From Caulobacter sp. (GTDB lineage: Bacteria > Pseudomonadota > Alphaproteobacteria > Caulobacterales > Caulobacteraceae), in contig WGLL01000001.1 of NCBI GenBank assembly GCA_016125585.1, positions 1-64,000 on the forward strand: DNA of 64,000 bases, in the 5' to 3' direction. The notes beneath the pieces were generated by a model, which ran no database searches, was not told where the DNA came from, and worked only from the letters and a program-made list of their open reading frames with translations. This document shows, in pieces, positions 11,896 to 16,328 of the stretch. The translations under genes and the position numbers were made by a program. The number at the start of each line of letters is the position of its first letter. The first letter of the stretch is position 1.

Positions 11896-12500
11896 AGGTC
11901 GCTGAGCGCGTCCTCGACCTCTGCGTCGCTCATGCAGCCCTCGCCGGTGAGCGCCATCTCCCGCCCCTTGGCCAGGACCCGGACGGCGAGGGCCTCGAAC
12001 GCTGCGTCGGGCGGCGCGGCGAAGGCTTGCTGGTAGACCACCCGGCCGCCACGATCGGAGATGGTGAAGCCGTCCGGAGCCGTTGTCGCCGCCGACGGCT
12101 CCGCGCCTGGACGCACCCGGAAAGATTCTTCGCCATATCGCCGGAGCCTGGGATCGGCGCGCCACGGCTTGCGCCAGCTCTGGCCCCGGAACCTCAGCTC
12201 GAATTCTCCGTCGCGCGTGCGCCGCAGCGATGAGAGCATCCGGGTGATGGACAGCCCGACCTCATCGATGGCGGTGCGGTCGCCGGCGTCGATCCGGAAG
12301 CTGATCGATACCCGGCTGGAGCCCGCATCGGAGGCCCACACCAACCAGTAGGGCGCGGTTTCGCCCTGCCTGAAGTGCGCCGTCATCGCGCTTTGGCCGT
12401 CGAACGCGGCGGCCTGGCACAGGCGATCCTCGCTCCAACCTGGGGTCGCGGCCAGGAAGACAAACAGGGCGGGGCAAAGGGCGAAGATGGCGCGTCTCAT
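11883..12500 (-). CDS. Secreted protein of unknown function
   Basis: 205 residues with a signal peptide (ALCPALFVFLAATPGWS, cleavage near 23). The mature part has one cysteine close to the N-terminus (DRLCQAAAF) and one near the C-terminus (GEGCMSD), which may form a disulfide. No recognised domain; the composition suggests a beta-rich soluble periplasmic protein. Its ATG overlaps the stop of the upstream XdhC-like gene as ATGA, so the two are translationally coupled, which is an unusual partner for a maturation chaperone. The 3' end overlaps the convergent SDR. Confidence 0.7.
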   Translation of the reverse strand: MRRAIFALCPALFVFLAATPGWSEDRLCQAAAFDGQSAMTAHFRQGETAPYWLVWASDAGSSRVSISFRIDAGDRTAIDEVGLSITRMLSSLRRTRDGEFELRFRGQSWRKPWRADPRLRRYGEESFRVRPGAEPSAATTAPDGFTISDRGGRVVYQQAFAAPPDAAFEALAVRVLAKGREMALTGEGCMSDAEVEDALSDLQNR

Positions 12501-13477
12501 CGACCGGCGTTCGAGCTGGCCCGCGCCAGGGGGCTGACGAGGGCGGGTTTGCAGCGCAACGAAATGATCTCACCGATCACCGCCACAGCGATCTCCCAGG
12601 GCGCCTTGCCGCCGAGGTCGAGACCGATCGGCGCCCGGATCCGCTGGAGATTTTCCTCTGGCAGTCCCGCCTGTCGCAGTCTCTGCAGACGATCGGCCAG
12701 GCGGCGGCGCGCCCCCAGCAGGCCGACATAGGGGGCCGGCGACGGCAGGGCGGCGGTCAGGGCGGCGTGGTCCAGTTCGATGTCGTGGCCGCAGATGGCG
12801 ACGGCGGTCCAGGCGTCGAGGCCGATGGCGGCGAGGGCGCTGGCCGGATCGTCGCGCCGGTAGGCGACCCCGGGCAGGGGCGGCGGCGCGGTCGGGCCGC
12901 GCGGCCGCACCAGGGTGGTTTCATAGCCTGAGCGGGCGGCCAGATCGGCGATGGCCAGGGCCGTGGGGTCGGCGCCGAGCACGATCATCCGCCAGGCAGG
13001 ATCGAAATCGAGGACCAGGGCGCCGTCCCAGGGGGCGACATCGGCGCCGCAGAGGCGGCGGGTTCCATCGCTGATCCAGCGGACGGGGCGGCGGTCGCGG
13101 CGGGCGTTCAGGAGGGCCGCGGCTGCGGGATCGTCCGGGGAGATTTTCTCGACCAGGATTTCAATCCGGGCGCCGCAGAGCAGGCGGATGTCGGGCCAGG
13201 GACTGCCCTCGCCGTAGACCAGGCGCCGGGGTTGGCCGTCATCCATGCAGGCGGCGGCATGCAGCGCCACATCGCCCTCGACACAGCCGCCGGAGAGAAA
13301 GCCGCTGACCAGGTCCGGACCGAACACCATCTGCGAGCCGACCGGTCGCGGACCGCCGTCGCCCAGTGCGCTGATGGTGGCCAGAACCGCCGGGGCGCCG
13401 CCGGCCAGCACGCGGGCCAGCGCCGGCCTCTGATCGTCGTCGAGGCCGTACAGGGGCCAGTCGGGAAGGGTGTTCAT
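12497..13477 (-). CDS. XdhC/CoxI-family molybdenum cofactor maturation protein (orphan)
   Basis: 326 residues with the XdhC_CoxI N-terminal domain (ATISALGDGGPRPVGSQMV, then the hallmark SGGCVEGDV) and the C-terminal Rossmann-like XdhC_C domain (MIVLGADPTALAIADLA, YVGLLGARRR, and RAPIGLDLGGKAPWEIAVAVIGEI). Family members bind Moco and help its sulfuration or insertion into xanthine dehydrogenase or CO dehydrogenase-type enzymes. No molybdenum hydroxylase subunit lies in the window, so the client is unknown. The ATG at 13477 was chosen because the family pattern starts shortly after it; the ribosome binding site is weak. Confidence 0.85.
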   Translation of the reverse strand: MNTLPDWPLYGLDDDQRPALARVLAGGAPAVLATISALGDGGPRPVGSQMVFGPDLVSGFLSGGCVEGDVALHAAACMDDGQPRRLVYGEGSPWPDIRLLCGARIEILVEKISPDDPAAAALLNARRDRRPVRWISDGTRRLCGADVAPWDGALVLDFDPAWRMIVLGADPTALAIADLAARSGYETTLVRPRGPTAPPPLPGVAYRRDDPASALAAIGLDAWTAVAICGHDIELDHAALTAALPSPAPYVGLLGARRRLADRLQRLRQAGLPEENLQRIRAPIGLDLGGKAPWEIAVAVIGEIISLRCKPALVSPLARASSNAGR

Positions 13478-13600: not shown

Positions 13601-14653
13601 GTGACCTACGCCGCCTTCATCGCCGAACCGCCGCCGCGCCGGACCATCGCCCGTCCGATCGCCAGCGGTTGCCGGCTGAGCGACGAGGATGGCGACAGCC
13701 GCATCGATTTCGACATGTGCGGCGGCTCGGTGCTGCTGGGCCACGCCCATCCGCGCGTCGAGGCCGCCGTCAGCGAGGGCGCGCCGGGACAGGACCGCGC
13801 CGCCGCCGCCCTGGCCGCCCTCTTGCCGGGCGAGCCGCTGGCCCGTTTCTGCGCCGAGGAGGGCCAGGCCCTGCCGGCGGCCGCCGCCGCCGCCCGCAAG
13901 GTCACCGGCCGCCGCCGCATCGCCGTCTGGGACAGCCGCGGCGGGGTTTGCGAGGGCGAGGACGATCTGGCCGCGGTGCTGGTCGATCCGCTGGGCATGA
14001 CGCCGGCACAGCTGCGCAAGGCCCGCGAGGCGGCCGACGCCGCCGGGGCGCTGTTGATCTTCGACGAGGGTGTCAGCGGCTTTCGCGTCCACGCCGGCGG
14101 GGCCCAGGGCCTGAGCCGGGTGCGCCCCGACCTGTCGGTGTTCGGCGCCGGCCTGGCCAACGGCCGGCCTTTCGGCGCCGTCACCGGGGATGAGGAAATG
14201 ATCGCCGCCCTGGCGCCCGAGGACCTGCCCGCGCCGCGCGGCGACAGCCTGGCCGCCGCCGGCGCCACCCTGGAGCTGCTGGCCGCAGCGCCGGTCGCGC
14301 CGCATCTGCAGGTGCTGGGCGCCCAGATCCAGGCCGAGGTTGAGGCCCTGGTCCGCAAGGCCGGCGCCGTGCGGCTGTTTTCCCTGTCCGGCGACCCGAC
14401 CCTGCCGACGCCCCTGTTCGCCGCCCCGGCCCTGGAAGGCTTGTGGATGCGGGAGATGACGGCGCGCGGGTTGATCGTGGTCGGTCCCCATGCGCTGAGC
14501 GCCGCCCATGGCCAGGGCGAGGCCGCCGCCCTGATCGAGGCCTATGCGGCGATGCTGCCGGCCATGATGGCCCGCAACATGGCCGAGATCTTCGCCCGGC
14601 CCCGGCCGGTTCAAGACGCCCTGTATTCCGCCGCTCCAGAAGGATGCGCATGA
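13601..14653 (+). CDS. Class III aminotransferase-like (HemL-like) protein lacking the PLP lysine
   Basis: 350 residues aligning by eye with glutamate-1-semialdehyde-type class III aminotransferases: IDFDMCGGSVLLGHAHPRV (N-terminal), IFDEGVSGFR with the PLP-nitrogen Asp155, and RPDLSVFGAGLANGRPFGAV. In active relatives the last block carries the Schiff-base lysine (FGK..ANG); here that position is Ala183. The protein is also about 80-90 residues short, apparently in the phosphate-binding middle, where KVTGRRRIAVWDSRGG jumps to AAVLVDPLGMTP. It is therefore unlikely to be a normal transaminase. It begins with GTG behind GGAG and is coupled to the next gene by ATGA. The family call is firm and the loss of activity is inferred. 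Confidence 0.75.
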   Translation: MTYAAFIAEPPPRRTIARPIASGCRLSDEDGDSRIDFDMCGGSVLLGHAHPRVEAAVSEGAPGQDRAAAALAALLPGEPLARFCAEEGQALPAAAAAARKVTGRRRIAVWDSRGGVCEGEDDLAAVLVDPLGMTPAQLRKAREAADAAGALLIFDEGVSGFRVHAGGAQGLSRVRPDLSVFGAGLANGRPFGAVTGDEEMIAALAPEDLPAPRGDSLAAAGATLELLAAAPVAPHLQVLGAQIQAEVEALVRKAGAVRLFSLSGDPTLPTPLFAAPALEGLWMREMTARGLIVVGPHALSAAHGQGEAAALIEAYAAMLPAMMARNMAEIFARPRPVQDALYSAAPEGCA

Positions 14654-15525
14654 GCTTTTCCCTTACCAAGCTTGGCATGAGCGCCGCCCAGTTCGGCCTC
14701 GGCGGCCAGTCGGGCCCGCGTTCGCGGCCGCCGGAAGTGGAGGCCCGCGACATGCTGGCCATCGCCGCGCGTGGCCAGCTGTCGGTGCTGGACGCCTCGG
14801 GCGTATACGGCCGGGCCGAACAGATTCTCGGCGATCTGATCCCGCGCCCCTCCAGGTTCCGCCTGACTCTCAACAGCGTGCGCGCCGATCGCGGTCCCGA
14901 CTTCGTCGAGGCCGAGGCCCGCGCCAGCCTGCGCCGCCTGGCGGTGGAGCGGGCCGACGCCATCGTCGTGCCCTCGGCCGGCGAGCTGTTCGGGCCGCAC
15001 GGCCTGACGCTCTGGACCCGGCTGCAGCAGATGAAGGCCGAGGGCCTGTTCGCGCGGATCGGCATTGCGGTGCATGCCTCGGACGATCCCTGCGGCGTGG
15101 TCAAGCGCTTCAAGCCCGACCTGATCCAGGCCCCCGCCTCGCTGCTGGACCAGCGGCTGCTGGCCGACGGCACCCTGGCCCGCATCGCCGGCATGGGGGT
15201 CGAGGTGCAGCTTCGCTCGGTGTTCCTCAACGGTCTGCTGTTCCTGCCCCCCGACCGGGTTCCGGCCAGCCTGAAGGGCGCCTCCGGTCGTCTGTCGCGG
15301 GTGCGCCGGATGATCGCCGAGGGCCGCAGCGATCCTCTGCAGGCGGCGCTGGGCTTCGCCCTGTCGCGACCCGAGGCCAGCGCCGTTCTGGTCAGCCCGA
15401 CCTCCGCCGCCGAGCTGTCGGCCATCATCGCCGCCGCCGCCAGCCCGCCCCCCGACCTCGACTGGGACGACATGGCCCTGGACGATCCGGTCGCCCTCGA
15501 TTCCGGGAGCTGGGCCGCCGCCTGA
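14650..15525 (+). CDS. Aldo/keto reductase-fold protein with altered catalytic tetrad
   Basis: 291 residues of the AKR (beta/alpha)8 family, of the kind found in nonulosonate/LPS sugar clusters (LGMSAAQFGLGG start; LDQRLLADG and VQLRSVFLNGLLF later). Of the usual Asp-Tyr-Lys-His tetrad, Asp48 and Tyr53 (LDASGVYGRAE) remain. The lysine position appears to be Asn75 (FRLTLNS) and the histidine position Pro108 (IVVPSAGELFGPHG). The ATG at 14650 is preferred over one two codons earlier because AAGGA is well spaced and the ATGA overlap couples it to the aminotransferase-like gene. Normal oxidoreductase activity is doubtful. Confidence 0.75.
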   Translation: MSFSLTKLGMSAAQFGLGGQSGPRSRPPEVEARDMLAIAARGQLSVLDASGVYGRAEQILGDLIPRPSRFRLTLNSVRADRGPDFVEAEARASLRRLAVERADAIVVPSAGELFGPHGLTLWTRLQQMKAEGLFARIGIAVHASDDPCGVVKRFKPDLIQAPASLLDQRLLADGTLARIAGMGVEVQLRSVFLNGLLFLPPDRVPASLKGASGRLSRVRRMIAEGRSDPLQAALGFALSRPEASAVLVSPTSAAELSAIIAAAASPPPDLDWDDMALDDPVALDSGSWAAA

Positions 15526-15569
15526 CCCGGCGGTTTCCATGGGCCCCGCTCAGAAGGAGCAACGCCGTC

Positions 15570-16268
15570 ATGATCCTCGCAGTTCTTCAGGCCCGCATGG
15601 CCTCCCGCCGGATGCCCGGCAAATCCCTGGCCAGCCTCGCCGGCGAGCCGATGATCATGCGCCAGATCGAGCGATTGCGCGCCGCCCGCACCCTGGGGCG
15701 GGTGATGGTCGCCACCAGCGTCGAGGCGGCCGACGACGCCCTGGCCGCCTATCTTCTGGCGCGGGGACAGGCTGTCTATCGCGGCGCCCCGGTCGACCTG
15801 CTGGGCCGGTTCGCCCGCTGCGTCGAGGCGGCGGGGACGGTCAGCCATGTGGTGCGGATCAAGGGCGACGCGCCCTTCGTCGATCCCGCCATCGTTGATC
15901 GCGCGGTCCGCATCGCCCTGGAGAGCGACGCCGACTATGTGACCAACCGCGACTGCTCGGGCTTTCCGCAGGGGCTGGAGGTTGAGGTGGTGCGCGCGCC
16001 GCTGCTGGTGGCCGCCGCGGCCGCGCCGCGCGACCCGCTGGACCGCACCTCGCCGACCGCCTTCCTGCGCAGCGGCGGGGCCAGAACCGCCCGCTTCGCG
16101 GCGCCCCGCGACCTGTCGGGACTGGACTGGCGGGTCAAGACCCACGCCGACATGGCCTTTGCCCGCTCGGTCTACGCGGCCCTGCACAAGGTCGATCCGG
16201 CCTTCGCCATGCGCGATGTGCTGGATCTGACCGGCGGGCGCCAGGACGTGGCCCGCTTCGCCGCCTGA
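15570..16268 (+). CDS. SpsF-like cytidylyltransferase-family protein
   Basis: 232 residues of the SpsF/NeuA/KdsB nucleotidyltransferase fold: MILAVLQARMASRRMPGK carries the nucleotide-binding RxPGK (14-18), and KGDAPFVDP, DYVTNRD and FPQGLEVEVV follow. Active relatives normally end with a VDTPEDL-like motif whose Asp helps bind metal; here it reads VKTHADM with Lys190. The EREHVTP-like block is also changed to LDRTSPT. Activated-sugar synthesis is the family role, and whether this copy still works is uncertain. A strong AGAAGGAG site precedes the ATG. It is the last gene of a three-gene cassette ending at a strong hairpin. Confidence 0.75.
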   Translation: MILAVLQARMASRRMPGKSLASLAGEPMIMRQIERLRAARTLGRVMVATSVEAADDALAAYLLARGQAVYRGAPVDLLGRFARCVEAAGTVSHVVRIKGDAPFVDPAIVDRAVRIALESDADYVTNRDCSGFPQGLEVEVVRAPLLVAAAAAPRDPLDRTSPTAFLRSGGARTARFAAPRDLSGLDWRVKTHADMAFARSVYAALHKVDPAFAMRDVLDLTGGRQDVARFAA

Positions 16269-16297: not shown

Positions 16298-16328
16298 GAG
16301 CCCGCCGATCGGGGGAATCGGCGGGCTC
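16298..16328. terminator. Perfect 12-bp hairpin between convergent genes
   Basis: GAGCCCGCCGAT and ATCGGCGGGCTC form a perfect 12-base-pair stem with a seven-base loop, 29 bases after the SpsF-like stop. There is no U-tract on the plus strand, but stem strength and position between the convergent SpsF-like gene and the BtuB gene suggest a bidirectional terminator. Confidence 0.65.

Follow-up and report, generated by a model that had tools for sequence, protein, structure and literature searches.

A putative pseudoenzyme operon around the cell-cycle regulator gene kidO in Caulobacter and its probable origin in an amino-sugar cassette

Within a 64,000-nucleotide stretch of a Caulobacter sp. genome (GenBank assembly GCA_016125585.1, contig WGLL01000001.1, positions 1 to 64,000; hereafter the window), three adjacent genes encode proteins similar to a class III aminotransferase (AT), an aldo/keto reductase (AKR) and the cytidylyltransferase SpsF. 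By its family match the middle gene is kidO, which encodes an already characterised regulator of the cell cycle and of division, and all three genes are under purifying selection and are conserved as proteins. Our reading, to which we assign a probability of about 0.7, is that the KidO operon consists of three pseudoenzymes derived from an ancestral AT-AKR-SpsF amino-sugar cassette, with the AT-like protein as a partner and the SpsF-like protein as a nucleotide-binding non-enzyme. A first-pass annotation of the window had suggested that the set could be a conserved pseudoenzyme complex. The reading as conserved pseudoenzymes is supported, but with KidO in the middle the cassette can no longer be called unknown.

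Results

The product of the middle gene matches the NCBIfam model for the bifunctional regulator KidO at 487.1 bits (cut-off 244; E 2e-146), and each of the three proteins exceeds a Pfam family cut-off. According to passages of two papers, C. crescentus KidO binds reduced nicotinamide adenine dinucleotide (NADH) and FtsZ, is a negative regulator of the CtrA pathway and is a substrate of ClpXP (PMC7083601; PMC5900048), its degradation requiring two C-terminal alanines (PMC7083601). A section of another source gives a further account of KidO function (PMC8973945), and an excerpt of one more places kidO among the genes with reduced transcription upon CckA loss (PMC12421884). The window protein shares with C. 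crescentus KidO the family assignment above a curated cut-off, and its Ala-rich C-terminus, WAAA, may correspond to the published ClpXP-dependent tail. Of 101 relatives, 57 have a KidO match that exceeds the cut-off, every one of them in the window's own genus, and so do 180 of the 199 genomes of our family survey.

Residue counts for that genus are based on 14 AT-like, 48 KidO and 43 SpsF-like orthologs, taken from fetched loci rather than from every genome with a match, and omitting genes that run off the end of a locus as well as those with fewer than 300 (AT), 250 (KidO) or 220 (SpsF) amino acids. Fifty-five loci of other genera were hand-picked among the matches listed to span genera (G470 not included). 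The C-terminus reads WAAA in 15 of the 48 KidO proteins of the genus, RWVA in 32 and NWVA in one, and 50 of the 55 from other genera end in AA. On alignment, the window KidO retains Asp48 and Tyr53 of the AKR tetrad and has Asn75 at the Lys and Pro108 at the His position, as had been read by eye in the first-pass annotation. The tetrad Lys is absent in 48/48 members of the genus, Asp48 is retained in 48/48 and Tyr53 in 22/48, while the His position holds His (19), Pro (15), Ser (10) or Gln (4). A complete Asp-Tyr-Lys-His tetrad was found in only five of the 103 sampled family KidO proteins (G404, G389, G409, G393 and G412); the incomplete tetrad seen in the window protein is a feature of most sampled members and is not known to be a published criterion. 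The most eroded KidO proteins that we saw belong to g18 (L250, L258, L262 and others), where Ala replaces the tetrad Asp and a gap falls at Tyr in 10 of 12 sampled genomes.

The AT-like protein scores 57.6 bits against Pfam PF00202 (cut-off 30.5). At position 183 it has Ala in place of the Lys that binds pyridoxal phosphate (PLP) in intact relatives, and the alignment bears out the earlier reading of this position. None of the 14 orthologs of the genus has this Lys (10 Ala, 4 Ser). At the positions that we take to be the PLP phosphate loop (G-S/T) and the YHGW aromatic loop, neither hallmark of a class III aminotransferase is present: all 14 read AEEGQA or similar where intact enzymes read KNGSDA, and the YHGW segment is deleted (25+11 residues in the window protein), Asp155 being retained. 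The protein has 350 amino acids against 438 in the intact protein of genome G404 (genus g256, family Caulobacteraceae). The resulting shortfall of 88 residues agrees in size with the 80 to 90 central residues reported as missing, but the loss is only partly central, since it comprises 29+4 residues close to the N-terminus, a further 10 following residue 62, the central 25+11 and smaller gaps elsewhere.

AT-like orthologs with 60-91% identity occur in 14 of 61 genomes of the genus, including the window's own, and all 14 reading frames are open at 345-355 amino acids. In a scan of named genomes, 80 loci were kept, of which 15 carry the AT-like gene; they include C. ginsengisoli DSM 18695, which has the full trio (L132), and Caulobacter sp. 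SLTY, and the set overlaps that of the genus. The PLP Lys is present in 0/15, and an SpsF-like gene with Lys190 lies within the fetched flank in 13/15. The ATGA overlap with kidO was found in 14/14 and 15/15 of these two overlapping sets. Outside the genus we found ten genomes in which an AT-like gene immediately precedes kidO; nine lack the Lys (Ala, Ser, Asp, Glu or Pro instead) and G404 alone retains it. Among the junctions checked there, G404, G534 and G393 have ATGA and G395 has TTGA. An AlphaFold model of the AT-like protein has a mean predicted local distance difference test (pLDDT) score of 59.5 and shows an AT-like core, residues 51-230 having block means of 54-91 and the remainder lower, and its best Foldseek match is glutamate-1-semialdehyde aminomutase.

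The SpsF-like protein scores 68.8 bits against Pfam PF02348 (cut-off 22.6). It retains RxPGK and Asp100 and has Lys98 for Thr, Ser161 for His of REHVTP and Lys190 at the Asp of WTVD; the alignment thus upholds what had been noted for RxPGK and Lys190. We take position 190 to be the second metal-binding Asp of SpsF/KdsB-type cytidylyltransferases, a role carried over from KdsB, and this Asp is absent from the window protein. Asp occupies the position in 6/6 other relatives compared, including the SpsF paralog of the window's genome. By contrast with these, Lys190 is found in 43/43 complete sequences of the genus, as are Lys98, Ser161, Arg188 and PGK; Arg14 of RxPGK and Asp100 are each kept in 42/43. 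In G040 the SpsF-like gene comes after kidO. The g244 copies (G527 and G535) also have Lys98 and Lys190. A different route of site loss is seen in G391, where a kidO-linked SpsF (L244, 6669-7397) has kept the Asp and lost the RxPGK loop. The AlphaFold model (pLDDT 71.9) shows an SpsF-like fold, with low confidence at residues 12-26, the RxPGK loop, and at 181-193, around Lys190; Foldseek returned a cytidylyltransferase and then CMP-KDO synthetases. For both the AT-like and the SpsF-like protein, these predicted models support the fold, not the mechanism.

The ratio of non-synonymous to synonymous differences (pN/pS), pooled over four close pairs that were hand-picked and include two from one clade, is 0.24 for the AT-like gene, 0.10 for kidO and 0.17 for the SpsF-like gene (Fisher P ≤ 1.1e-63, a test that assumes independent sites). 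By thirds of each gene the values are 0.29/0.19/0.25, 0.10/0.15/0.04 and 0.12/0.23/0.15, respectively. Nei-Gojobori (NG86) dN/dS over nine pairs per gene ranged over 0.12-0.44, 0.05-0.33 and 0.04-0.31 in the same order. The ortholog comparison that the first-pass annotation had proposed finds purifying selection in all three genes, which for this reason are, as that annotation had held, not plain decay. Simple pseudogenisation is rejected by the open frames together with pN/pS. We also rejected a mere shift of the catalytic residues, since no alternative Lys, His or Asp aligns at the AT, AKR or SpsF sites. Frameshifts were found in none of the 14 AT-like genes of the genus, and kidO lies in two frames in one genome of the genus. 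In this genome, the one-contig G027, the match (C1:173190-174066) has its two frames one base apart, which may be natural or come from an error in sequencing; the length rule keeps it out of the 48-member set.

Intact relatives of the three proteins point to their origin. In a survey of 289 genomes of the class, seven of the ten best AT matches outside the window's genome have an SpsF match on their contig at a distance of at most 10 kb. At one locus outside the family (L120, genome G228), AKR, SpsF, AT, PseG-GNAT and PseI genes follow one another, and the catalytic residues that were compared are intact; PseG and PseI are above their NCBIfam cut-offs, and the single NCBIfam match of the AKR is KidO, at 165.8 bits and under the cut-off. 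At L122, AKR, SpsF and AT again occur together, the AKR being 36-37% identical to KidO. SpsF and AT are fused in single alphaproteobacterial proteins of 685 (L123, 6582-8639) and 629 amino acids (L126, 5783-7672), which shows that a physical link between the parent enzymes is possible. Similar long SpsF/AT frames were seen at several further class matches.

Within the family, G404 carries AT, a KidO-family AKR (392.8 bits, above the cut-off) and SpsF at L237 (5085-8030), in the order of the window and including the ATGA overlap. Its trio retains every checked catalytic residue (KNGSDA, YHGWQDW, the PLP Lys, DYKH, REHVTP and WTVD), and no NeuB match was found in this genome. L120 and G404 thus resemble the window in bringing the same three families together, and differ in that the residues present there (Lys, Lys/His, Asp) are gone in the window; the gene order of L120 differs as well. 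In the SpsF tree G404 is sister to the kidO-linked SpsF proteins (Shimodaira-Hasegawa-like approximate likelihood ratio test, SH-aLRT, 97), and in the AT tree, built with 18 of 24 lysine-less kidO-linked sequences (14 orthologs of the genus, G542 and nine of other genera), it is sister to the pseudo-AT clade. In the KidO tree (75 of the 103 family members and four outgroups), moving G404 outside the KidOs is not rejected (approximately unbiased test, P = 0.206). These KidO-tree results would fit a single inactivation or several. Genomes G409 and G393 carry both a NeuB-AT-SpsF run, in which Lys and Asp are retained, and, at another site, an AT-like gene without the lysine next to kidO.

A nonulosonate biosynthetic cluster would be expected to include NeuB/PseI, and none lies beside the window cassette. 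The lone NeuB match of the window's genome, PseI by NCBIfam, is on contig C8, the window being on C16. There, PseI, PseG and a usual SpsF stand together (L094, 5384-8211), like flmC-flmD of C. crescentus. The pseudaminic acid genes of that species, as presented in part of one paper, are FlmC-FlmD-NeuB, with FlmC resembling cytidylyltransferases (PMC7591256). The window's genome is alike in having such an SpsF by PseG and PseI, but this SpsF keeps WTVDRPDD and is on a contig other than the window's.

The layout of the operon is given in Table 1.

Table 1. Features of the kidO operon in the window
Feature	Position	Strand	Basis
AT-like gene, class III aminotransferase-like pseudoenzyme (putative), 350 aa, GTG start	13601..14653	+	Pfam PF00202 and alignments
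Likely kidO Shine-Dalgarno sequence, AGAAGGA, within the last AT-like codons	14638..14644	+	Sequence; invariant E347 and G348; role inferred
kidO, AKR-fold regulator, 291 aa	14650..15525	+	NCBIfam NF011432
SpsF-like gene, SpsF/CTP_transf_3-like pseudo-cytidylyltransferase (putative), 232 aa	15570..16268	+	Pfam PF02348
Perfect inverted repeat with a 12-bp stem that may mark the end of the operon	16298..16328	.	Sequence

The ATGA that was said to join the first two genes is read directly at 14650-14653, and a second in-frame ATG for kidO lies at 14644. The strong hairpin described at the end of the set corresponds to the inverted repeat, which has no T run after the stem. In the 180-181 bases upstream, no full CtrA-type site (TTAA-N7-TTAA) was found in the window, the 15 named AT-bearing loci or eight AT-less loci; a one-mismatch site occurs in 6 of these 24 and GANTC in 3. 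An XdhC-family gene (Pfam PF13478, PF02625) lies divergent from the AT-like gene at 12497-13477 on the reverse strand.

Discussion

The loss of residues, the purifying selection and the synteny are shown here, as are positions in the trees that agree with descent of this operon from a glycan-type cassette; the loss of cofactor binding and catalysis and the partner roles are what we infer. An ancestral AT-AKR-SpsF cassette of the Caulobacteraceae would have come from a nucleotide-activated amino-sugar pathway of the nonulosonate or pseudaminate type. Most likely, KidO arose inside this cassette, the enzymes losing catalysis in all three genes as the operon, with its gene order and translational coupling, stayed; we say so because AKR, SpsF and AT are found intact beside PseG and PseI at L120 and as an intact trio in G404. 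The descent from a glycan pathway proposed in the first-pass annotation gains support from the same intact relatives. The AKR would have become KidO, an NAD(H)-binding protein that keeps FtsZ and the CtrA pathway in check until it is degraded by ClpXP, as published for C. crescentus and, by analogy, presumed for the window ortholog. Having lost the Lys and both the phosphate and the aromatic loop, the AT-like protein most likely no longer binds PLP and acts as a partner protein or a coupling factor for KidO, used in some lineages and apparently dispensable in most. On the simplest account it was lost several times later, its presence showing at least six state changes on the KidO tree. The SpsF-like protein, which keeps a cytidine triphosphate (CTP)-binding signature and one metal Asp and has Lys fixed in place of the other, is most likely able to bind a nucleotide but not to turn it over. 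For both proteins, we consider a role as accessories or ligand sensors of KidO the most likely.

Several observations weigh against this account. The AT-like gene is the least constrained of the three and is found in only 17 of the 199 family genomes (E 1e-30); because of this and its presence in just 14 of 61 genomes of the genus, it is not an obligatory member of a complex. An SpsF-like gene stands beside kidO in only 4 of the 55 sampled loci of other genera, and five genomes of the genus (G009, G013, G017, G024 and G049) have only paralog-level SpsF matches. The intact trio rests, within the family, on the single genome G404, which is placed as sister to the pseudo-AT clade with a support of only 83 and is nested among the KidOs rather than basal to them; the long-branched fusion L126 falls inside the pseudo-AT clade, where it is probably misplaced. 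The AlphaFold models have moderate confidence (59.5 and 71.9). Furthermore, a passage of one paper describes kidO as non-essential in C. crescentus (PMC8262945), and part of another reports that kidO deletion left the suppression of cckA(ts) by cpdR loss unaltered (PMC12421884).

Some of these points would also be expected if only KidO mattered, with the AT-like and SpsF-like genes being departing leftovers kept temporarily by translational coupling and operon position. We regard this as unlikely, although it is the rival that we take most seriously. The AT-like gene is missing beside kidO in most relatives, and tblastn (E 0.01) detected no remnant of it upstream of kidO in 33 AT-less loci from 32 genomes of the genus. 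The scarcity of the SpsF-like gene outside the genus fits too, as does the AT-like tail, which carries the likely ribosome-binding site of kidO and whose E347 and G348 are probably held in part by this Shine-Dalgarno sequence. Departing genes, on the other hand, would hardly keep pN/pS at 0.24 and 0.17, with no third of either gene reaching 0.3, nor 14 of 14 AT-like frames open at 345-355 amino acids, nor the unusual Lys98, Ser161 and Lys190 fixed in 43 of 43 sequences.

The invariance of Lys98, Arg188 and Lys190 in these sequences resembles adaptation more than drift and, with PGK kept throughout and Asp100 in all but one sequence, could hint at new chemistry, e.g. cytidylyl transfer with Lys190 replacing the second metal Asp. 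We consider this improbable: the AT-like site shows a drift (to Ala, Ser, Asp, Glu or Pro) that would not be expected of a new active site, position 75 of KidO drifts likewise, and the same genome also encodes an SpsF paralog that has the usual residues. That the three enzymes are still active on their original pathway, as the retained folds and family scores would allow, is hardly credible when the PLP Lys and phosphate loop, the AKR Lys and the metal Asp are all gone and the single NeuB/PseI match of the genome lies on another contig, by PseG and a usual SpsF.

A more ambitious version of the pseudoenzyme reading is that the three proteins form one metabolic checkpoint, in which KidO would read NAD(H), the SpsF-like protein CTP or a sugar linked to cytidine monophosphate, Lys190 taking the place of a metal ion, and where present the AT-like protein would hold the two together. 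We hold this to be speculative and rather doubtful. If true, a segment of a glycan pathway would have been converted, gene by gene within one operon, into a device coupling redox state and nucleotide or envelope-sugar supply to division.

KidO itself was already known; what is new here is that kidO is flanked by two further pseudoenzymes and that an intact cassette of the ancestral type exists. We found no mention of operon partners or of such an origin of KidO in the open-licence papers searched, which do not include the original KidO paper. Compared with the KidO described for C. crescentus, the window's kidO is preceded by an AT-like pseudoenzyme gene with an ATGA overlap, an arrangement missing in most of the same-genus genomes searched. 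GdhZ and CitA of C. crescentus, in the account given by part of one paper, are active metabolic enzymes that act in cell-cycle control (PMC7083601). They resemble KidO as members of enzyme families in cell-cycle control, but are described as catalytically active and do not form a multi-pseudoenzyme operon.

KidO is an enzyme homologue turned cell-cycle regulator, and the loci described here suggest that its source was the AKR of an amino-sugar cassette. G404 is a living relative with a full tetrad and intact neighbours, and graded intermediates are also available. The change from enzyme to regulator, and the joint conversion of its operon-mates, may thereby become testable in a model bacterium.

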